This document shows positions 5,628 through 14,441 of a stretch of DNA of 46,541 bases, piece after piece (position 1 is the stretch's first letter; every line of letters begins with the position of its first letter). Below the pieces are notes generated by a model. It saw only the letters and a program-made list of their open reading frames with translations, was not told the origin of the DNA and made no database searches. The stretch spans positions 1 through 46,541 of the forward strand of contig JAIEBI010000070.1 in NCBI GenBank assembly GCA_029070965.1, given 5' to 3'. The position numbers and the translations under genes were made by a program. This DNA comes from Clostridiales bacterium. GTDB lineage: Bacteria > Bacillota > Clostridia > Christensenellales > Pumilibacteraceae.

Positions 5628-8390
5628 TTACGCTCTGTCTACAACCACGCCGCAATTATTGCTGCCGATTTTTACGGTCTTGCTGGCAAGATGGTTGCCG
5701 CCTGCCGCAGCTGCGGCGGACGTGATGGTGACCTTAATCTTTTGTCCGTTGCCGCCGGTGACGGTGTACGAGATTGTACTGCCGCTGCCGCTGCCGGTCA
5801 TTGCGGTAGCCGTGCCGAGCTTGTAGGTCTTGCGAATATCGGTAAGCATCTTGACCCAGTTCCACAAAGAGGTTTGGTCTGCCACTTGTTCCTGCACGCT
5901 CCTTACGCTGCTCGTCGCGTTAAGACCGGTGAGCTCGCACTTGAGCTTGTCGTAGCCTATGGAGTAGCCTGCGGAGGTTTGCGTTCCGCCGTACCCGCCC
6001 CATTTCATAGGCTGACGGTAAACCCTGTCCTCGTGCGGGCTGCTGGTAAGCGAATCGGTGCTGCCTGTATCAAGCGTATATTGCATAATGCCTTCCATGC
6101 CGATTTCGTCGCCGTAGTATATCCAGCTGACCCCGGGCATAGTAAGCACCATACCGTAGTACAAGAACAACGCGTTATACGAATCGTCGATAAGATTACC
6201 TTTAATTTCCGCATACCAATCGTCTGTTGATCCGTTGGTCTTGCTGAGCGCCATGCGGTTGCGCGCGCGCGGCAAGTCGTGGTTGGATGTGAAATATCCG
6301 CCTATAAACTTGGGGTTCACTTTCTTATACAGATCGTAGCTGGCAAGCGCGGTGGTAAACGTCGCGCCCATCCAACTGGCATTGGTACTTCCACCCCAAG
6401 TGCTGGTTATACCTCTTATAGTAGCAAATCCGCGCGAAGCGTAGTAGGTGTTAAACTCGAACTGCGAGTCGATACCCTGATAGTACTCATCGATACGCGC
6501 GTTCCATCCGTCAAGGTTTTCGCCTACGACAAACGCATTGGGATATTTGGATTTAAGCCTGTAATTGAATTCTCTGTAAAAGTTGTAGTTGCGGATTTGG
6601 TCGTGAGAATACAAGCCGTCGGAGACTACGCCGCTTTTACCGGCAGTTATATCATTATCAGTTAAAGTCGCCGAGCATGTGCCGCCCTTGCCTACGACCT
6701 CGTTTACCATATATATATGCTTTACCGCGTCGAGGCGGAAGCCGTCAAGTCCGTAGCCGCGAGGATTAGTCGGGCTGTTGTCCATCCACTGGTAGCAAAT
6801 GTCGAGTATGGCGTCGCGCACGGGCTGGTAGTCGTAGTTAAGCTCGGGCATGCTGCTGCCGAACGACGAGTAATAGTAGTAGTCGTGTTCGTCCTTGAAC
6901 CACTGCTTTTTGGGGCACGTACTGTTATCCTTTTTGCAATCAGCCGTGCAGGAGTGCAACGCTTGATACTGCTCTTCGTTGATCCAGCTGTAGAAATTGC
7001 GGTAATCGACCTCGGTCATGTTCGTGTTGGACAGCTCGAAATCGACCTCGCTCGCACTTTCCTTAACAAGGTTTTTGGACTTGACAAACCACTCGTTGGC
7101 TTCCGAGGTATGGTTGAGAACAAAGTCCATAACGACCTTCATACCCTTTTGGTGCGCCTTGGTGACAAGCTCTTTGTAATCCGCCGCGGTGCCCCACTTG
7201 GAATCGACGCTGAAATAATCGTCAATGTCGTAGCCGTGGTAGTTGGTGGAGGTCTGGAAAGGCGTAAGCCAAAGCATATCCACGTTAAGGCTGTCAAGGT
7301 AATCGAGCTTGCTTATAATACCGGGGATATCGCCCATGCCGTCGCCGTCGCTGTCGCAGAAGGACGCGATAAAGATTTGATATCCGGTGTTGGCGTCAAA
7401 GCCCTGTACGCCCGCCGTCCACTTTTGGTACGGGGAATCGTTAAGGCTGTTGATAATGCCGACGCCGCTGGTTGCGGTTGTCGCCGAGCCTACGGGAATC
7501 TTGCCGTAAACGTCCTCTATAACCTCGCCGGTATAGGTAGGGGTGCCTTTGCCCACCTTGCCCTCGCTGACGTACCAGTGGTAATCGCCGCCCGAGCGCC
7601 TTGCATCGTCAAACTTGATATAGTTGTTGCCGCCGTCGTTCGACCAAAAGCCTTGGCTCTGTCTGGAGCTGAGCTTGAACAACTGCGTGCCTATTTGCGT
7701 CACTTCCTTGTAGTTCATTTCGTTTGTAAGCGGCACACCGGGGACAACCGTTCCGTTCCAGCCCGCGTCATGATAGTCTCGGGTAAGGTCAATGTCGTAG
7801 ACCGCACCGGACTCGTCGATCCAAGCGGGATTAAACGTTCTGCCCTCGCCGTTTTTGGGCCACGCCCAAAGGCCCCAGTCGCCGTAAACGGTAGACGAGG
7901 ACGCCGTGCTGTAAAGCGGCGCGCCCGCGCCCATTCCGCCTGCGGGCGGATTGACCTGCTCCGACTCCAAATGCGCAGCGCGTTTGTAGTGAATATATAA
8001 ATGTCCGGATCTCGCCCAGTTTGCCGTGTTGTTATCATACTCGAGTCTAGCGGCGTTGGACTCCCATTTTGCCGTAAGCTCAACGTGGCCGGTAATCTTG
8101 GTAGTGCCGGTATACTGCTTATTGCTTGAATCAAACCAGCCGACAAAAGAATATCCGCTGCGAGTGGGCGCAGGGAGCATCGCGCCAAGCGCCTTTCCCT
8201 CGCCTACCTGTATAGGATCGGGGTTCGGTGCTCCGTTGCCGTTGAAAGTAACGGTATACGTTTTGCTCGTAATCACAATGCCGTCGGGTGTACCGGTGCC
8301 GCCGTCCGGCATATCTATGCCGCCGCAGGCAAGCATGGATAAGCTCATAACAGCGCAAAGCAAACATATGATCGCTTTTTTGAACTTCAT
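5628..8390 (-). CDS. Secreted GH13 alpha-amylase/pullulanase-like lipoprotein with one Listeria-Bacteroides repeat
   Basis: Probable extracellular glucan hydrolase. A signal peptide ends in lipobox LSMLAC (Cys near residue 22), so the protein should be lipid-anchored. Residues about 42-110 form one flg_new (Listeria-Bacteroides/InlB-type) repeat ending in ELTAKW. A starch-binding-like segment with LYIHYKRA and YGDWGLWAWP follows (about 128-280), resembling the pullulanase N-terminal (CBM41-type) domain. The GH13 barrel begins near GYQIFIASFCDSDGDGMGD (about 336). Its conserved regions are DFVLNHT (422-428), GFRLDAVKH with nucleophile D554, VVGENLD with acid/base E624, and FTSNHD with D705. 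All three catalytic acids are present. ATG at 8390 is preferred because GGAGG lies 5 nt upstream; two upstream ATGs overlap that site. Exact substrate is not settled by sequence. Confidence 0.93.
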   Translation of the reverse strand: MKFKKAIICLLCAVMSLSMLACGGIDMPDGGTGTPDGIVITSKTYTVTFNGNGAPNPDPIQVGEGKALGAMLPAPTRSGYSFVGWFDSSNKQYTGTTKITGHVELTAKWESNAARLEYDNNTANWARSGHLYIHYKRAAHLESEQVNPPAGGMGAGAPLYSTASSSTVYGDWGLWAWPKNGEGRTFNPAWIDESGAVYDIDLTRDYHDAGWNGTVVPGVPLTNEMNYKEVTQIGTQLFKLSSRQSQGFWSNDGGNNYIKFDDARRSGGDYHWYVSEGKVGKGTPTYTGEVIEDVYGKIPVGSATTATSGVGIINSLNDSPYQKWTAGVQGFDANTGYQIFIASFCDSDGDGMGDIPGIISKLDYLDSLNVDMLWLTPFQTSTNYHGYDIDDYFSVDSKWGTAADYKELVTKAHQKGMKVVMDFVLNHTSEANEWFVKSKNLVKESASEVDFELSNTNMTEVDYRNFYSWINEEQYQALHSCTADCKKDNSTCPKKQWFKDEHDYYYYSSFGSSMPELNYDYQPVRDAILDICYQWMDNSPTNPRGYGLDGFRLDAVKHIYMVNEVVGKGGTCSATLTDNDITAGKSGVVSDGLYSHDQIRNYNFYREFNYRLKSKYPNAFVVGENLDGWNARIDEYYQGIDSQFEFNTYYASRGFATIRGITSTWGGSTNASWMGATFTTALASYDLYKKVNPKFIGGYFTSNHDLPRARNRMALSKTNGSTDDWYAEIKGNLIDDSYNALFLYYGMVLTMPGVSWIYYGDEIGMEGIMQYTLDTGSTDSLTSSPHEDRVYRQPMKWGGYGGTQTSAGYSIGYDKLKCELTGLNATSSVRSVQEQVADQTSLWNWVKMLTDIRKTYKLGTATAMTGSGSGSTISYTVTGGNGQKIKVTITSAAAAAGGNHLASKTVKIGSNNCGVVVDRA

Positions 8391-8423
8391 CATTTCCTCC
8401 ATAAAGGAATTATAGTATTAATT

Positions 8424-8982: not shown

Positions 8983-11900
8983 TTATTGCACTATCGCCGT
9001 GCCGTATGCGGGTACCGTGCTACTGCCGAACACCACGTTGCCGCTTACCGTCTTGCTACTACCCGAAAAGTTGTGGTACACGGTGTACGTTTGACCGCCG
9101 CCCGTCACAACTATTTTGAGCATGCCGTTACTTTCCGAACAAGTAGCCGTGCCGTTTATGAGCGTAGGATTATCGTTACGGAACTTGGTCAAGCTCTTTA
9201 CATAGCTTAGCATCGAATTGCTGTCATTTTGTTGGTCGGCGACGCTCTTGGTGCTGTTGTTTGCACCGTTATCGTAAATAGCGGTACACTTGTTGGCCCA
9301 ACTACTCGTCCACTTCATGGACTGGCGCAAGTCGTCGTCGCCGCCCTTTTGTCCCGCAAGCCCTATCTCGTCGCCGTAGTAAATCCAGCTGAGCCCCGGC
9401 ATTGTCATTATTACCGCCATATACAGCTTGGCTTTTGCGGTATTGCCGCCGATAATGCTGTTAAGCCTGTTAATGTCATGGTTGGAGCTTATCATGCAGT
9501 TAATAGGTCTGTCGGCTCTGTTGGTTTGATACTTTTGCGCGTTGGCGTTAAACTCATTAGCCGTAGCCGCCGCGCCGCCGTCAAGCCGACCGGGCAGATT
9601 GTAGTACGTATTAAAGTCGAACAGCGAATCCATGCCTTTATAGAACGGCGAAACATCGTCGGTATTGCCGTTGAGCTGCTCGCCCAAAAGATAGCAGTGC
9701 GGATATTTGGATTTCAGCTTGTAGTTGAATTCCTTAAAGAATTCAACGTTCTTCGTTTCGTTGTAGTTGTACGGCCTGTCGTTGGCGCCGCCCTCTCTGT
9801 CGCCACCCGCATTGTCGCTTTCGTCCCACATGAATACGTGCTTAATGGCGTCCATGCGGAAGCCGTCCAGTCCGTAGCTCATCCAGTACGCCGCAACGTC
9901 CACCATTGCGTCGCGCACCGGCTGATAGTCATAGTTAAGCTCGGGCATGTTGCCGCCGAACGACGAGTAGAAATACCAGTTATCCCCCGCGCTTTCCATG
10001 CGGTTGCCGCCGCTGCTCTTCCAACGGTAAAAGTCGCGATACTTGACGGTCGCCTTGGTGCCGTCTTGATACGTAACCTCCTCGATTACGCCGTCTTTGG
10101 ATTTTTTGAACCACTCGTTATTGGGCGAGGTGTGGTTTACAACCAAGTCCATTATTATCTTCATGCCGCGGCTGTGCGCCTCGAACACAAGCCTGCGGTA
10201 ATCGGCGTTGGTGCCAAACTTGGGATCTATGCTATAATAGTCGTAGCAATCGTAGCCGTGATAGGAATTACTGCTCTGTATAGGGGTAAGCCACAGCACG
10301 TCCACGTTAAGGCTTTGCAAATAATCGAGCTTGCTGATAATGCCCTTTAAGTCGCCCACGCCGTCGCCGTTGCTGTCGCAGAACGACGCGACAAAGATTT
10401 GATAGCCAACGCCCATCTCGTCCCAACCGCTTACGGTTGACATAACCGGCAAATTTTTTGCGTAGTTGCGGTTGACGTTACCTTGACTTTCGCGCTTAGG
10501 CTCGTTGCCGCCGACGACCTCGCCTATCGTAGGCGGTTCGCTGCTGCCGTTTGCCGTCTTACCCTGCTTTATGTACCAGTGATAGCTGCCCTCCACCTTT
10601 TGCGCATTGGACAAAGTGACGGTATTATCGCCGCCGTCCTTGTTCCAGCCCGCTTGCGTTACGATAAAGTTGATTGTGGAAAGCCCGTTGTTAATCGAAT
10701 CTTTTAGATTGATTGCAAATACCGCGCCCGAGTCGTCAATCGCAACGGTATTCTTTATTTCTTGATTGTTGTCGCCGTCCTTCCAGTTGTATATATACCA
10801 ACCGTCGTAGTCGCTCGCGCTGCGCAAATAGTGAATGTACAGCGTGTTGCTCTCCTTCATTGTAGGCGCGTATTGGGTGGGCGTGTCGCCGCCACCGCCG
10901 CCACCGCCACCGCCGCCGCCAACTTGCCACTTGGCAAACAGCGTGACGTTTTCGGTAACCGTGTTGACGGAGAAATTCCACTTGGTACTGCCCTCTTCCG
11001 CGTACCAACCGCTAACAGAGTAACCGTCGCGCGTGAGCTGCGGCTCGGCAATCGTGCTGCCGGCAGGCACCGTGACTGCCGCGGGGTTGTACACGCCGGC
11101 AAGCCGCGCGTCCCGCCCGACGTTGAAGGTTACGGTAACGTCCTCGCCGTCGCCGACAACAGTCCAGCGCGCCGTAAGCGTAAGCGTCGCGCCGCTTACG
11201 GTGTCCGTTGCAAAATTCCATTTTGTGCCGCCGTTATACCAGCCGTCGAGCGTATAACCTGCATTCGTTATATTGGGCTGTACTACCTTGCCGCCGATAT
11301 CGATAGTCTGTTGCTGCGCGGTAGCCGAGCAGTTGGTAACAAAAGTGACTACGCACTTGGTGACTTCTTGTTGAATTAAAGTCCACCTCGCGGTCAAAAC
11401 AAGCGTTTCGCCGCTAACGGTGTCGGTTGCAAAGTTCCATTCCGTTCCGTCGTCCTTAAACCAGCCGTCAAGCGTGTAGCCGGCGTTGGTTATGTTTGGA
11501 CGACTGACCTTGCCGCCCTCGTCGACAGTCTGCTGCGGCGCGGTAGCCGAGCAGTTGGTAACAAACACTACCGTGCATCTGTTGGGTTCCACATGAATTA
11601 GCGTCCAACGCGCGCGCAAAACAAGCGTATCTCCGCTTACGGTGTCGGTATCGAAATCCCATTTTTTGCCGTCGTCCGTGAACCAACCGTCAAGCGTGTA
11701 GCCCTCTCTGTATGCGTTGGGATCGCTCACCTTTTCGCCCACCTTTACGGTTACCGGCGCAAGCACCGTGCCGTTGTTGGGATAAAGCGTAACAATGCAT
11801 TCGTCTTCCGGAATCGGTTCCGGTCTGTCTCCGCCTTGCTGCGTCCACTTAGCGTACAGTGTAAGCGACGTGCCGCTTACGGTGTCGGTATCGAAATCCC

Positions 11901-12207
11901 ATTCGTTATCGAAATCTCGGTCCTTGAACCAACCGCCGAATTCAAACCCATCGCGAGTGGGGTCGACGGGACGGTCAACCTTGCCTCCGATGTCCACACG
12001 CTGTGCGTCAACGCTGCTGCCGCCGTTTTCATGGAAAACGACTACGCAATACGTATCGTTATTATTATTGTTATTGTTGTTATTATTACCGCCGCCGTTC
12101 CCTGCAACGTCAATGGTGCCGCACGCCATAAAGCACGCTACGACAACCATTAAAACGGTCACAAGCAGCACAGTAAACACAACAGATTTTTTTTGCAGTT
12201 TTCTCAT
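8983..12207 (-). CDS. Secreted GH13 amylase-like lipoprotein with five Listeria-Bacteroides repeats
   Basis: A 1074-residue probable surface glucan hydrolase. The signal peptide ends in VVACFMAC (Cys29), a lipobox-like site. An Asn10 run (41-50) leads into five flg_new/InlB-type repeats at about 52-121, 136-202, 211-276, 286-348 and 356-427, each ending in a variant of LTARW or LYAKW. A polyglycine linker (about 429-440), a starch-binding-like domain (LYIHYLRS...DYDGWYIYNW) and the GH13 barrel follow. Catalytic regions are DLVVNHT (687-693), GFRMDAIKH with nucleophile D786, LLGEQLNG with acid/base E843, and SSNHD with D911. Repeats 3 and 4 are nearly identical (NITNAGYTLDGW), and their DNA shares a 28-bp identical stretch, so they arose by recent duplication. 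GAGAGGG precedes the ATG. The catalytic half is paralogous to the neighbour at 5628. Confidence 0.93.
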   Translation of the reverse strand: MRKLQKKSVVFTVLLVTVLMVVVACFMACGTIDVAGNGGGNNNNNNNNNNDTYCVVVFHENGGSSVDAQRVDIGGKVDRPVDPTRDGFEFGGWFKDRDFDNEWDFDTDTVSGTSLTLYAKWTQQGGDRPEPIPEDECIVTLYPNNGTVLAPVTVKVGEKVSDPNAYREGYTLDGWFTDDGKKWDFDTDTVSGDTLVLRARWTLIHVEPNRCTVVFVTNCSATAPQQTVDEGGKVSRPNITNAGYTLDGWFKDDGTEWNFATDTVSGETLVLTARWTLIQQEVTKCVVTFVTNCSATAQQQTIDIGGKVVQPNITNAGYTLDGWYNGGTKWNFATDTVSGATLTLTARWTVVGDGEDVTVTFNVGRDARLAGVYNPAAVTVPAGSTIAEPQLTRDGYSVSGWYAEEGSTKWNFSVNTVTENVTLFAKWQVGGGGGGGGGGGDTPTQYAPTMKESNTLYIHYLRSASDYDGWYIYNWKDGDNNQEIKNTVAIDDSGAVFAINLKDSINNGLSTINFIVTQAGWNKDGGDNTVTLSNAQKVEGSYHWYIKQGKTANGSSEPPTIGEVVGGNEPKRESQGNVNRNYAKNLPVMSTVSGWDEMGVGYQIFVASFCDSNGDGVGDLKGIISKLDYLQSLNVDVLWLTPIQSSNSYHGYDCYDYYSIDPKFGTNADYRRLVFEAHSRGMKIIMDLVVNHTSPNNEWFKKSKDGVIEEVTYQDGTKATVKYRDFYRWKSSGGNRMESAGDNWYFYSSFGGNMPELNYDYQPVRDAMVDVAAYWMSYGLDGFRMDAIKHVFMWDESDNAGGDREGGANDRPYNYNETKNVEFFKEFNYKLKSKYPHCYLLGEQLNGNTDDVSPFYKGMDSLFDFNTYYNLPGRLDGGAAATANEFNANAQKYQTNRADRPINCMISSNHDINRLNSIIGGNTAKAKLYMAVIMTMPGLSWIYYGDEIGLAGQKGGDDDLRQSMKWTSSWANKCTAIYDNGANNSTKSVADQQNDSNSMLSYVKSLTKFRNDNPTLINGTATCSESNGMLKIVVTGGGQTYTVYHNFSGSSKTVSGNVVFGSSTVPAYGTAIVQ

Positions 12208-12298: not shown

Positions 12299-13006
12299 TT
12301 ACCGCTTATTCAACAATTCTTGCCGCATTTTATGTCGGCGCGCAAGATACAGTATGGGTGTGTCCAACAGCGACGTGAACACGAATATTATATATCCCGA
12401 CCCGAATATGGACATAAGCGTAACAAAGTCATAAGTCCCCGCAAACGCCAGCACCGTAAACAACAGCGAGTTTATAAGCTGGCTTACAAGCGTCGAGCCG
12501 TTGTTGCGCAGCCATAAAAACCTCTTTTTGTCGCCGAATTTTTTCTCCGTAAAGCTCCACCACTTGTGGTACAGCCACACGTCGAATATCTGACTGACCA
12601 CGTACACTATAAGCGAAGCGCACACTATGCGCGGCGTTGCGGTGAATATCGCGCGGAAGGACGGCAACAGCGTATCGCTCGCGCTCGGCACAAAGCACAA
12701 CCAGCTTGCCGACAGTCCCAAAAAGAACAGCGTGGCAAAAAGCCCTATGTACACCGCCTTATTAGCCGCCTTTTTGCCCTCGCACTCGGACAAAATGTCG
12801 GTGACGAGAAATGTGGACGCAAACAGCACGTTGCCGAGAGTCTGTTCCATGCCGAACGCCTTTACCAGAATAAGCACCTCGATATTGGCAAACACGGTGG
12901 CGACGGCGGATACGGCGTACAATCCCGACTTGCCAAACAGCTGATATGCAAGTAACACCACGCCGTAAATGAACACGACCGATACGATAAGCAGTAATTC
13001 GTTCAT
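12299..13006 (-). CDS. yhhQ: Queuosine-precursor transporter, YhhQ/VUT family
   Basis: Integral membrane importer for a queuosine precursor (preQ0, preQ1 or queuine). The 235-residue protein has about six to seven hydrophobic segments. Family signatures are TLGNVLFASTFLVTDILSE in the N-terminal half and FLWLRNNGSTLVSQLINS near residue 165, the conserved Asn/Gln-rich stretch of the DUF165/VUT family. Its start overlaps the end of the radical SAM gene by 4 bp (ATGA), so the two are translationally coupled. Family members differ in specificity: E. coli YhhQ takes preQ0 and preQ1, and the chlamydial one takes queuine. Beside a probable queuine lyase, queuosine or queuine is a reasonable guess, but that is inference. 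Confidence 0.9.
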   Translation of the reverse strand: MNELLLIVSVVFIYGVVLLAYQLFGKSGLYAVSAVATVFANIEVLILVKAFGMEQTLGNVLFASTFLVTDILSECEGKKAANKAVYIGLFATLFFLGLSASWLCFVPSASDTLLPSFRAIFTATPRIVCASLIVYVVSQIFDVWLYHKWWSFTEKKFGDKKRFLWLRNNGSTLVSQLINSLLFTVLAFAGTYDFVTLMSIFGSGYIIFVFTSLLDTPILYLARRHKMRQELLNKR

Positions 13007-13698
13007 TCGCCCACCCCGAAATCGGTATTGTTCAGCAATATGTCCACGCGTGGATGATCCTTATATATAGGATATACGCGCGCGCGGAATAGGTCTATAA
13101 CGGCACGGTCGGGCTTGACGGCGGTCGAGTTGTCGCACATTATATTTACGCAAATGCGCTCGAAGCTGTTTAACCCTAATTTAATATCATTGAGCATGCT
13201 TTGCTCGGTTTGTCCGCTAATGCCGAGCAAAAAATTCGCTTCGTCAAAGCCGTTCGCTATTACGACGGGGTCGCTATCCTTTATGCCTTTGAGCAAAACG
13301 CGCTCGCGCAAGTCGTAATCGAATGTTTCCAAACCCAGCTTGAATTTGAGCGTAAAGCCGTCGAACTCCCGCCTAAGCTCTGCAAGCCTATCCTTATATA
13401 TATAATGCACTTCGAAGTGAATTACCGTTATGCCCTTGTCGCGGCATATCGATTTGATTAAATCGAGCGTGCGGCAGTCCAGCTCGAACACCGAACCGCT
13501 GTTTATAACCTCCAACTCGCCGTACTCGCCCGTCACGTTGGACAACACCTCGGCGTTGAGCGCAAAGTTGTCGTCGTCGGACGGCGAAAAATCCAAGTGG
13601 TAATCGCAAAACGCGCACCGCTTATACGCGCACCCTCGCCCGCGCAGCAGCACGATTTCGCGCTTGCGCTTGTCGTTGATAATCGAATATCTATCCAT
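13003..13698 (-). CDS. queL: Radical SAM protein, probable queuosine/queuine lyase (QueL)
   Basis: The 231-residue protein has an Fe-S cysteine motif near its N terminus, RGCAYKRCAFCDYH, with C23, C28 and C31. This is Cx4Cx2C rather than the common Cx3Cx2C. Downstream segments IHFEVHYIYKD, LKFKLGLETFD and NFLLGISGQTEQSM fit a compact radical SAM barrel. Overlap with a YhhQ transporter and a riboswitch-like leader point to queuine salvage. Such a radical SAM enzyme, QueL, was described in Clostridioides difficile, where it frees queuine for direct insertion into tRNA. The ATG at 13698 is chosen because upstream codons lie inside the terminator hairpin. No Shine-Dalgarno sequence is visible; only 7 nt separate the terminator T-run from the ATG. 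The function assignment is mostly from context. Confidence 0.72.
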   Translation of the reverse strand: MDRYSIINDKRKREIVLLRGRGCAYKRCAFCDYHLDFSPSDDDNFALNAEVLSNVTGEYGELEVINSGSVFELDCRTLDLIKSICRDKGITVIHFEVHYIYKDRLAELRREFDGFTLKFKLGLETFDYDLRERVLLKGIKDSDPVVIANGFDEANFLLGISGQTEQSMLNDIKLGLNSFERICVNIMCDNSTAVKPDRAVIDLFRARVYPIYKDHPRVDILLNNTDFGVGE

Positions 13699-13824
13699 AG
13701 TAAATAAAAAGGGCGTTTGCAACCATCACAAACGCCCGAACCTATCGGTTCATGCCTCCATAGTTTTGATTTTGGTGATTATTTCACCACGGCAGGATGG
13801 TTACGAACTGCCTAATATTAAATT
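13699..13824 (-). promoter_or_regulatory. Riboswitch-like leader with intrinsic terminator, upstream of queL-yhhQ
   Basis: From the promoter at 13831-13859 the transcript would start near 13824. In RNA order the leader has a stem GGCAG/CTGCC, a hairpin GGTGA-AATAA-TCACC, an A-rich linker ending in CTATGGAGG, a hairpin GAACC-GATA-GGTTC, and a strong terminator (13711-13737, GGGCGTTTG/CAAACGCCC, then TTTTT). The terminator ends 7 nt before the start codon. This is the plan of a transcription-terminating riboswitch. The operon context suggests a preQ1 or queuine ligand. It does not fit the short preQ1-I pattern I know; preQ1-III or an undescribed class are the options. GGAGGCATGAACCGATAG could also be read as a three-codon leader ORF. 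Confidence 0.6.
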
Positions 13825-13830
13825 AAATAC

Positions 13831-13859
13831 ATTATATACAACACCCGACCGCTTGTCAA
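13831..13859 (-). promoter_or_regulatory. Promoter of the queL-yhhQ operon
   Basis: TTGACA (13859-13854), 17-bp spacer, TATAAT (13836-13831) on the minus strand; both hexamers are perfect. A promoter this strong in front of an attenuated leader fits control by termination rather than by initiation. Confidence 0.85.
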
Positions 13860-13925: not shown

Positions 13926-13953
13926 TTGACTTTTAATAATGGGAGTATATAAT
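13926..13953 (+). promoter_or_regulatory. Promoter of the small zinc-ribbon gene
   Basis: TTGACT (13926-13931), 16-bp spacer, TATAAT (13948-13953); start codon 30 bp further. It diverges from the queL promoter 66 bp away. Confidence 0.75.
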
Positions 13954-13982: not shown

Positions 13983-14441
13983 ATGTTTTGCACCAAATGC
14001 GGTACGCAGCTTACCGACGACAGCAGATTTTGCTATAAGTGCGGCGCGCCGATGAACCACGACGAAGAGCCGAAGGACACCGTTTGGCAAGGCGAACTCG
14101 ACAATGCCGTAGCGGAAAAGCCCGAGCCTGAGCAGCCCGCCACTCAACCCGTCGCCCAGCCCGCAACTGCGCAACCGCAGCAGCAAAAAGCTTTAAGCTC
14201 CGCCGCGGACGACGGCATAATAAGCATACTCGGATTTGTTTTTGCATTTTCGGCACCGCTTATCGGGCTTGTACTATCGCTTATAGGCTACCGCAAACCC
14301 AAGTACCGCAATTTGGCTATTGCGGGAATAACAGTCGGCACAATCCTTTTAGTCGGCTTGCTCGTGATTGTCGCGATTGGATTTAAAAACATGTCCGATT
14401 CTTCCATTCCGCTATTCATTTTGATAGCCACATTACTGTAA
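13983..14441 (+). CDS. Small zinc-ribbon membrane protein
   Basis: The 152-residue protein opens with a zinc ribbon, MFCTKCGTQL...FCYKCG (two CxxC pairs, residues 3-21). A Glu/Pro/Gln-rich linker leads to two or three membrane segments: ISILGFVFAFSAPLIGLVLSLI, then LAIAGITVGTILLVGLLVIVAIG and a short C-terminal hydrophobic end. The C-terminal part resembles the DUF4190-like helical hairpin common in such proteins. AAGGAG stands 7 nt before the ATG. It shares its N-terminal plan with the gene at 3717 but not its size. Function unknown. Confidence 0.85.
   Translation: MFCTKCGTQLTDDSRFCYKCGAPMNHDEEPKDTVWQGELDNAVAEKPEPEQPATQPVAQPATAQPQQQKALSSAADDGIISILGFVFAFSAPLIGLVLSLIGYRKPKYRNLAIAGITVGTILLVGLLVIVAIGFKNMSDSSIPLFILIATLL

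Follow-up and report, generated by a model that had tools for sequence, protein, structure and literature searches.

PreQ1-I riboswitches are among the smallest riboswitches, and their subtypes were reportedly defined by McCown et al. in 2014. The subject of this article is a leader RNA that is very probably a type I member of this class, with a stem-loop inserted in loop L3 under the P1 hairpin and a queL-yhhQ salvage operon under its control. It lies in a 46,541-nucleotide stretch of DNA (the window; positions 1 to 46,541 of contig JAIEBI010000070.1, assembly GCA_029070965.1) from a Clostridiales bacterium of the family Pumilibacteraceae. Type I aptamers, in the available text of PMC11625349 and PMC8752633, are marked by UC before the 3' strand of P1, UU atop its 5' strand, and CUA in the tail. 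The solved type I riboswitch of Carnobacterium antarcticus, as presented in that part of PMC8752633, binds two preQ1 molecules cooperatively and has U6, U7, U16, C17, A30, and C31 as its pocket residues. In type III, according to the corresponding text of PMC10622847, a variable-length A-rich tail links P1 to the expression platform.

The closest described operon is queK-qrtT-queL of Clostridioides difficile, which the available text of PMC11477304 places under a PreQ1-I riboswitch. In the window, too, a preQ1-I riboswitch stands ahead of a salvage operon with queL, but there are two differences: its queL is paired with YhhQ/QPTR, with neither queK nor qrtT in the pair, and its riboswitch bears a hairpin. 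The riboswitch class and its place ahead of a queL operon are thus already known from C. difficile, and what is described here is a structural variant of that class with a hairpin in L3.

A Type I Core Interrupted by a Hairpin

The leader runs for about 128 nt on the minus strand (13826-13699, the transcript start being assumed from the promoter) and holds a complete preQ1-I type I core, composed of P1, U6-U7, U16-C17, an A-rich tail, and C31-U32-A33, with residue numbers taken from the Carnobacterium structure and assigned by position. The P1 hairpin, GGCAG-UUCGUAACCAUC-CUGCC (13791-13812), pairs 13812-13808 with 13795-13791 around a 12-nt loop (13807-13796) that presents U6, U7, and C8, then A12, and finally U16 and C17. 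Directly below P1, in loop L3, the core is split by an inserted hairpin, UGGUGA-AAUAA-UCACCA (13773-13789), after which it resumes with the A-rich part of L3 and the 3' strand of the pseudoknot, AAAUCAAAACUA (13761-13772), bearing A30, C31, U32, and A33. All 15 queL leaders of the window's family share the core GGCAG-UUCGURACCAUC-CUGCC, an insert, and an A-rich tail that closes with CAAAACUA, L011 departing from the core at a single base. The original prediction, made from the sequence of the window, had recognized a queuine-salvage operon behind this leader but had seen no short preQ1-I pattern in the RNA; the operon stands, whereas the pattern is present after all, interrupted by the inserted hairpin, and the class proposed for the RNA has to be replaced.

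The type I marks are all in place in the window leader, and all six pocket residues are present, by position, both there and in its relatives. P1, the 12-nt loop UUC...AUC, the A-rich L3, the CUA tail, and the pocket residues are those of the Carnobacterium aptamer as the available text of PMC8752633 describes it, and the canonical form and that of the window alike stand upstream of genes for queuosine precursors. Canonical type I aptamers differ in that P1 leads into the A-rich part of L3 with no intervening hairpin. The window leader therefore lacks one type I trait, a short, uninterrupted A-rich L3; because every ligand-contacting feature is present, however, the longer, hairpin-bearing L3 is treated here as variation inside type I. 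A P2 pairing of CCAU with AUGG was considered and dropped, as the type I structure disagrees with it.

The same loop and tail also occur without the hairpin. The letters of the window, GUUCGUAACCAUCC and CAAAACUA, are identical to those of four hairpin-less matches to the Rfam preQ1 family RF00522 (L035-L037 and L050). A search of 291 class genomes with one loop-and-tail pattern, allowing a gap of 4-15 nt from GUUCGNRAMCAUCC to CAAAACUA, gave 50 canonical places in 47 genomes. The gap measures 10 nt at each of the 50, as against 26 nt in the window; in L035-L037, which lie outside the class sample, it is 8 nt. A gap of 16-46 nt occurs at three places in three class genomes, the window's included, so that the hairpin form is the rarer of the two in this sample.

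Distribution and Conservation of the Inserted Helix

A pattern search of the GTDB contig collection, with the CAAAACUA tail required by the pattern, returned at least 120 stretches; the counts given below are of the 120 loci listed. Three were dropped as chance matches with a P1 of less than 4 bp (L070, L091, L142) and three as canonical aptamers in which the tail motif occurs twice (L099, L105, and L169, of which L099 and L169 are from Agathobaculum), leaving at least 114 genuine hairpin loci with 112 distinct cores. A hairpin is predicted between P1 and the tail in 113 of these 114, L076 being without one, and its placement is regular: in 108 of the 113 its first base is separated from P1 by 0-2 nt, and in 77 its end lies 4-5 nt short of CAAAACUA. 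Assembly titles are mostly those of Clostridia, Oscillospiraceae, Ruminococcus, Ruminococcaceae, and Lachnospiraceae, many of them titled after animal gut samples, and include the cultured Ruminococcus sp. FMBCY1 (L103) and Pseudoruminococcus massiliensis (L109).

The genes that follow are nearly all concerned with queuosine salvage. Within 4 kb, and with identities taken from Pfam scans of representatives, the nearest recognized gene is queT at 66 of the 114 loci, queL at 35 (30 of them also with yhhQ), yhhQ at 8, and a distant Vut_1 transporter at 2, so that queT, queL, or a YhhQ-family transporter comes first at 111; at the remaining three no gene was recognized, two of the stretches ending too soon. 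At the queT loci the tail runs into a Shine-Dalgarno-like stretch in 60 of 66, with an estimated start 5-29 nt on in 58, which points to translational control. At the queL loci the estimated start lies 50-187 nt on in 32 of 35, and most of the expression platforms that were folded end, by eye, in a stem with a T-run, exceptions being L073, with a 15-nt platform, and L102. In the window's own family the 12 genomes with the hairpin form in the range of the pattern all have queL (a remnant in one, G029), the other three queL genomes carry longer inserts, and the ten genomes with the canonical form all lack queL.

Conservation of the helix was assessed in an alignment of 36 sequences, the window and 35 loci with 16-23-nt inserts and distinct cores from the first 80 of the at least 120 listed. 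P1 and the inserted helix taken together have 84.5% of their cells paired, compared with 57.7% in shuffled alignments, none of 500 of which reached the observed value, and with at most 48.4% when the pairing partner is slid; P1 alone is paired in 97.2% of cells, with four of six pairs changed on both sides, and the inserted helix in 71.8%, with such changes in all six. Cells changed on both sides number 125 (shuffled, 50.6) and the covariation score is 0.628 (shuffled, 0.171), neither figure being reached in 500 shuffles. RNAalifold recovers both helices unaided, including five of the six inserted pairs. Across the 114 loci the mean folding energy of the insert is -7.1 kcal/mol against -3.0 kcal/mol when shuffled, with p ≤ 0.05 in 69 loci but not in the other 45. 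The inserted helix thus covaries, and its pairing is conserved.

Conserved pairing invites the question of whether the hairpin is itself the regulatory element, as a site for protein binding, pausing, or processing to which the aptamer is secondary. The inserts do vary like a free arm, in sequence as well as in length (P1 and the tail motif are 14-41 nt apart at the 114 loci, and longer family inserts measure 45 nt in L005, 84 nt in L007, and 182 nt in L006), yet no conserved loop or motif is apparent in them by eye, no motif search having been made, and the conserved pairing fits a spacer or stabilizer. A primary regulatory role for the hairpin is accordingly judged unlikely.

Relationship to Rfam Families

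At gathering thresholds Rfam calls no family in the window, the leader falling below the 39 bits required by RF00522, and makes no call on 20 loci taken from the first 80 of the at least 120 listed, two of the 20 being canonical. Even at E ≤ 10, none of the preQ1 families of any class, RF00522 included, matches the window leader among 4227 Rfam families. How far the insert is responsible can be judged from other loci. At E ≤ 5, RF00522 was found at three of nine hairpin loci (L012, L013, and L014, at the right place) as against nine of ten canonical ones, and none of these reached 39 bits; as no canonical control did so, failure at gathering is not specific to the insert. The insert costs RF00522 score, and in these bacteria the gathering threshold is a demanding one for ordinary type I aptamers as well. 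R1, a model derived from the hairpin form, has matches in 51 of 398 genomes of the phylum, mostly at 40-46-nt sites, although its weakest, longer matches may be chance and the 68.4 bits of the window follow by construction; by comparison of coordinates, 14 of its places lie at RF00522 matches, with a best E of 4.7e-14.

These searches bear on a different class assignment. The original prediction had proposed preQ1-III, or a class sensing queuine or queuosine itself, and a leader longer than a minimal preQ1-I aptamer would suit preQ1-III, which the available text of PMC11625349 records from Ruminococcaceae. Neither gathering thresholds in the window nor E ≤ 10 on the leader yields such a family, however, and the architecture, P1 followed by an added hairpin and a preQ1-I tail around a complete type I core, is not the five-helix fold that the same text gives for preQ1-III. 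PreQ1-III, or any other known riboswitch class, is in our estimation exceedingly improbable here. PreQ1-II likewise has no match on the leader at E ≤ 10. Matches to other Rfam classes (the trpB motif at E 1.1, GibS at 1.3, the L10 leader at 3.3, and others) are far below gathering and were taken as chance, so that no riboswitch for an unrelated ligand was found.

The queL-yhhQ Operon and Queuosine Salvage

The architecture of the operon is largely as originally predicted. A strong sigma-70-type promoter on the minus strand (13831-13859) has TTGACA (13859-13854) and TATAAT (13836-13831) separated by 17 nt, with 12 of 12 consensus bases. The leader that follows has the look of an attenuator, with a terminator stem and a U-rich tail, and is folded: the 127 nt from 13825 to 13699 reach -38.6 kcal/mol (z -3.53), and none of 200 shuffles is equally stable. 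The two genes are compactly arranged, the queL-like gene (13003-13698, minus strand; 231 amino acids from the ATG at 13698) overlapping by 4 bp the yhhQ/QPTR gene (Vut_1; 12299-13006, minus strand; 235 amino acids), which encodes a putative queuosine-precursor transporter. An alternative reading frame of 239 amino acids from a TTG start was not used; the TTG falls inside the terminator region. The arrangement recurs in the family, where full-length queL copies are present in 14 of 74 genomes, that of the window included, together with one remnant, and yhhQ overlaps queL by 4 bp at 12 of the 14, starting 2 bp on in one and 208 bp on in L014.

The first gene encodes a radical S-adenosyl methionine protein. 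Only one PDB sequence, 6P78 ("Queuine lyase"), is related to it at E ≤ 0.01, with E 7.7e-46 over query residues 1-231. The C-x4-C-x2-C motif of the protein (C23, C28, C31), which 6P78 shares, has cysteines invariant in all 13 aligned sequences, the window included, and the protein has no Pfam match at E ≤ 1. An identity as the archaeosine enzyme RaSEA was rejected (TIGR01210, 31.7 bits against a cut-off of 212.15). Full-length homology in a divergent sequence makes the protein QueL-like, with a predicted queuine-to-preQ1 activity, and by the 6P78 homology it does not group outside QueL. Its partner matches TIGR00697 (168.3 bits; cut-off 50.95) and PF02592 (154.6 bits; cut-off 27.2), in agreement with the earlier assignment to YhhQ.

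The remainder of the pathway suggests why salvage may matter. At a completeness of 94.5%, the genome of the window contains tgt (515 bits), queA (459 bits), and queH (163 bits). Two matches to QueC, of 21.0 and 20.2 bits, lie in frames of 645 and 396 amino acids, the second passing the Pfam cut-off of 22 only together with its neighbors (23.7); both are taken as other proteins, leaving no convincing queC, and a profile search found no QueT in this genome. As tgt, queA, and queH are present while a convincing queC and queT are not, preQ1 should come from outside, or queuine should supply it via QueL. Across the 74 family genomes, QueC at 80 bits or more is found in none of the 14 with full-length queL and in 8 of the 60 others, a distribution that fits salvage replacing synthesis. 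One of these eight, G029 (L015/L087), has a strong QueC match of 187 bits; it keeps a leader with a terminator-like stem, and its queL match is cut to 61 residues, as if salvage were dispensable there.

A Proposed Switch

The aptamer is followed by an intrinsic terminator, the stem-loop GGGCGUUUGUGAUGGUUGCAAACGCCC (13711-13737, minus strand), which runs into TTTTTATTTA with its U-rich tail at 13710-13702; the post-aptamer segment folds with -24.5 kcal/mol. Within the terminator, GAUGGUUGCAAACGCC (13712-13727, minus strand) is complementary, with interruptions, to the aptamer at 13812-13796 and is the proposed 3' arm of an antiterminator. Folded with neither pseudoknot nor ligand taken into account, the leader has a state at -38.2 kcal/mol in which P1 is formed, the loop is unpaired, and the terminator is present, and another at -38.6 kcal/mol in which GUAACCAUC (13804-13796) pairs with GAUGGUUGC (13727-13719) and the terminator is lost; the two are predicted to be nearly isoenergetic. 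In folds of the growing chain, made in 4-nt steps under the same restriction, the antiterminator state appears at 108 nt.

These states suggest how the operon could be governed. YhhQ would bring in a 7-deazaguanine, be it queuine, preQ1, or both; QueL would convert queuine to preQ1, from which Tgt, QueA, and QueH would produce the queuosine of tRNA. With abundant preQ1, the pseudoknot would close around the ligand and lock the aptamer strands, so that the terminator can form and end transcription ahead of queL. In a shortage of preQ1, the 5' side of the aptamer (GGCaGUUcGUAACCAUC) would pair with the terminator's loop and 3' arm, and the 3' tail of the aptamer with the 5' arm, allowing read-through. 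The transcriptional preQ1-I riboswitch of Bacillus subtilis, a type II aptamer, would be the nearest parallel, as there too, in the available text of PMC11625349, preQ1 favors the terminator and the unbound A-rich L3 side joins the antiterminator.

Complementarity between aptamer and terminator was examined in 31 distinct queL leaders from the first 80 of the at least 120 listed, leaving aside L073 and duplicates and including the canonical L099. It is significant (p ≤ 0.05) in 15, through the loop strand in seven and through the tail in eight. The seven loop-strand leaders are all of the window's genus and match the terminator via the 5' loop strand, GUAACCAU(C), which, along with the type I pocket, sets them apart from B. 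subtilis; the eight others rely on all or part of the CUAAGGA tail, mostly with UCCUUAG or a portion of it, and include L013 of the window's genus. The antiterminator may therefore have been rewired from tail to loop strand inside one genus.

Several points weigh against the reading of this leader as a type I riboswitch with an L3 hairpin or limit parts of it. There is, as noted, no RF00522 match on the window leader at E ≤ 10. Pairs changed on both sides number 10 of 12 against a shuffled mean of 9.0 (reached in 8 of 500), a count that is weak alone, and further pair types number 31 against 30.0 (206 of 500). Sixteen of the 31 leaders have neither complementarity, and among the 62 tests about three would succeed by chance. 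Besides the neglect of pseudoknot and ligand in the folding calculations, the terminator state is, without ligand and folded from P1 on, that of minimum free energy in 12 of the 15 family leaders, that of the window among them, and the aptamer loop finds another partner only in L003, L005, and L006; this preference slightly weakens the case. The identity of the ligand rests on homology, and the cargo of the window's YhhQ does not follow from its family, as its relatives differ in substrate: in the available text of PMC11130926, the Escherichia coli protein carries preQ1 and preQ0 but not queuine and that of Chlamydia trachomatis queuine but neither preQ1 nor preQ0. Finally, the available text of PMC11625349, PMC10622847, and PMC8752633 does not mention a hairpin in L3, and an earlier description of the form is possible. 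Homology, covariation, complementarity, the two nearly isoenergetic states in the window, the operon context, and the gaps in the pathway nonetheless make a preQ1-I type I riboswitch with a hairpin inserted under P1 very probable. PreQ1 as the ligand, two molecules per aptamer, and the direction of control are suggested by homology, and the proposed cargo of YhhQ is an inference.

Ligand and Evolution

An operon expected to handle queuine might be thought to sense it, and the same fold could in principle have had its pocket shifted to queuine or queuosine so that the imported base is detected. The QueL tree, in which one branch (support 100/99) separates 31 hairpin rows from six canonical rows, has a form that such a change of ligand might give. 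Nevertheless, all the type I residues that bind preQ1 are kept, the hairpin lies at the P1 end, away from the pocket, and the hairpin form also precedes queT, at 66 of the listed loci. Feedback by preQ1, the product of QueL, suffices without any change, and the queL operon of C. difficile is itself under a PreQ1-I riboswitch in the available text of PMC11477304. Sensing of queuine or queuosine is thus considered highly improbable.

In the QueT tree the hairpin or canonical label requires seven changes, at least three of them forced by supported branches. Hairpin rows were drawn from the first 80 of the at least 120 listed, with those sharing the same first 120 residues dropped; as both trees are midpoint-rooted and the canonical QueL sample is small, they set no direction of change.

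Neighboring Features and Additional Loci

Two smaller features lie between aptamer and terminator in the window: UGGAGG (13755-13760, minus strand), Shine-Dalgarno-like, 3' of the aptamer and 56 nt from the ATG with no adjoining start codon, and a hairpin predicted by folding, GAACC-GAUA-GGUUC (13738-13751, minus strand). Most family leaders fold, by eye, a hairpin of different sequence at this spacer position. Upstream, a divergent promoter-like site on the plus strand, TTGACT-16-TATAAT (13926-13953), faces a 152-amino-acid protein (13983-14441) with paired cysteines, zinc-ribbon-like by eye. The operon's neighbors on the minus strand, 5628-8402 and 8983-12207, encode, to judge from their motifs, two large alpha-amylase-like proteins with "GYTLDGWF"-like modules.

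Individual loci vary further. In L006 the 182-nt insert (about 1237-1418) folds into two hairpins, one long and imperfect and the other small. In L057 the 186 nt between aptamer and queL contain a near-perfect long hairpin, resembling by eye a miniature inverted-repeat transposable element, and then a terminator-like stem with a T-run. The distant Vut_1 transporter (74-88 bits in L205, L207, L094, and L117) stands behind either form of preQ1-I; L205, L207, L208, and L209, from one genus, are canonical, and L094 and L117 have the hairpin. Among the ten family genomes with the canonical form, L205 and L207 were the two whose next gene was scanned. A gene named from its motif as like a short-chain dehydrogenase/reductase follows Vut_1 in L205, L208, L209, L094, and L117. 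L147, titled as a Bacteroides sp. metagenome-assembled genome, has a hairpin-form core with no recognized queuosine-salvage gene downstream; L096 bears the same title, and its QueL groups with Clostridia. Canonical type I cores at L175, L176, L186, L188, and L195 precede a gene for an M(K/R)KIGxTTTVP(V/I)E-like protein, which is not known to be a queuosine gene, followed by one for an LGID(M/L)GSREVK protein.

Implications for PreQ1-I Riboswitches and Salvage

L3 accommodates hairpins of about ten nucleotides up to inserts of 182 nt while the sequence of the pocket is kept, which shows it to be a point of extension in this small aptamer, and the series of hairpins is natural material for testing the role of L3 in folding. 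Surveys with RF00522 at gathering would overlook the tested copies of the hairpin form, along with many type I aptamers of the ordinary kind in these bacteria. As a tentative idea, more doubtful than probable, the hairpin could function as an additional arm and mark out a preQ1-I subtype of its own, stacking under P1 and tuning cotranscriptional folding of the pseudoknot, or hosting a second signal in the long-insert forms; such an arm would serve both translational switches, before queT, and transcriptional ones, before queL-yhhQ, with the antiterminator rewired from tail to loop strand in one genus. Gut bacteria are said, by Yuan et al. in 2019, to compete with their host for queuine. With feedback by its product, queL-yhhQ would constitute a directly testable salvage circuit.

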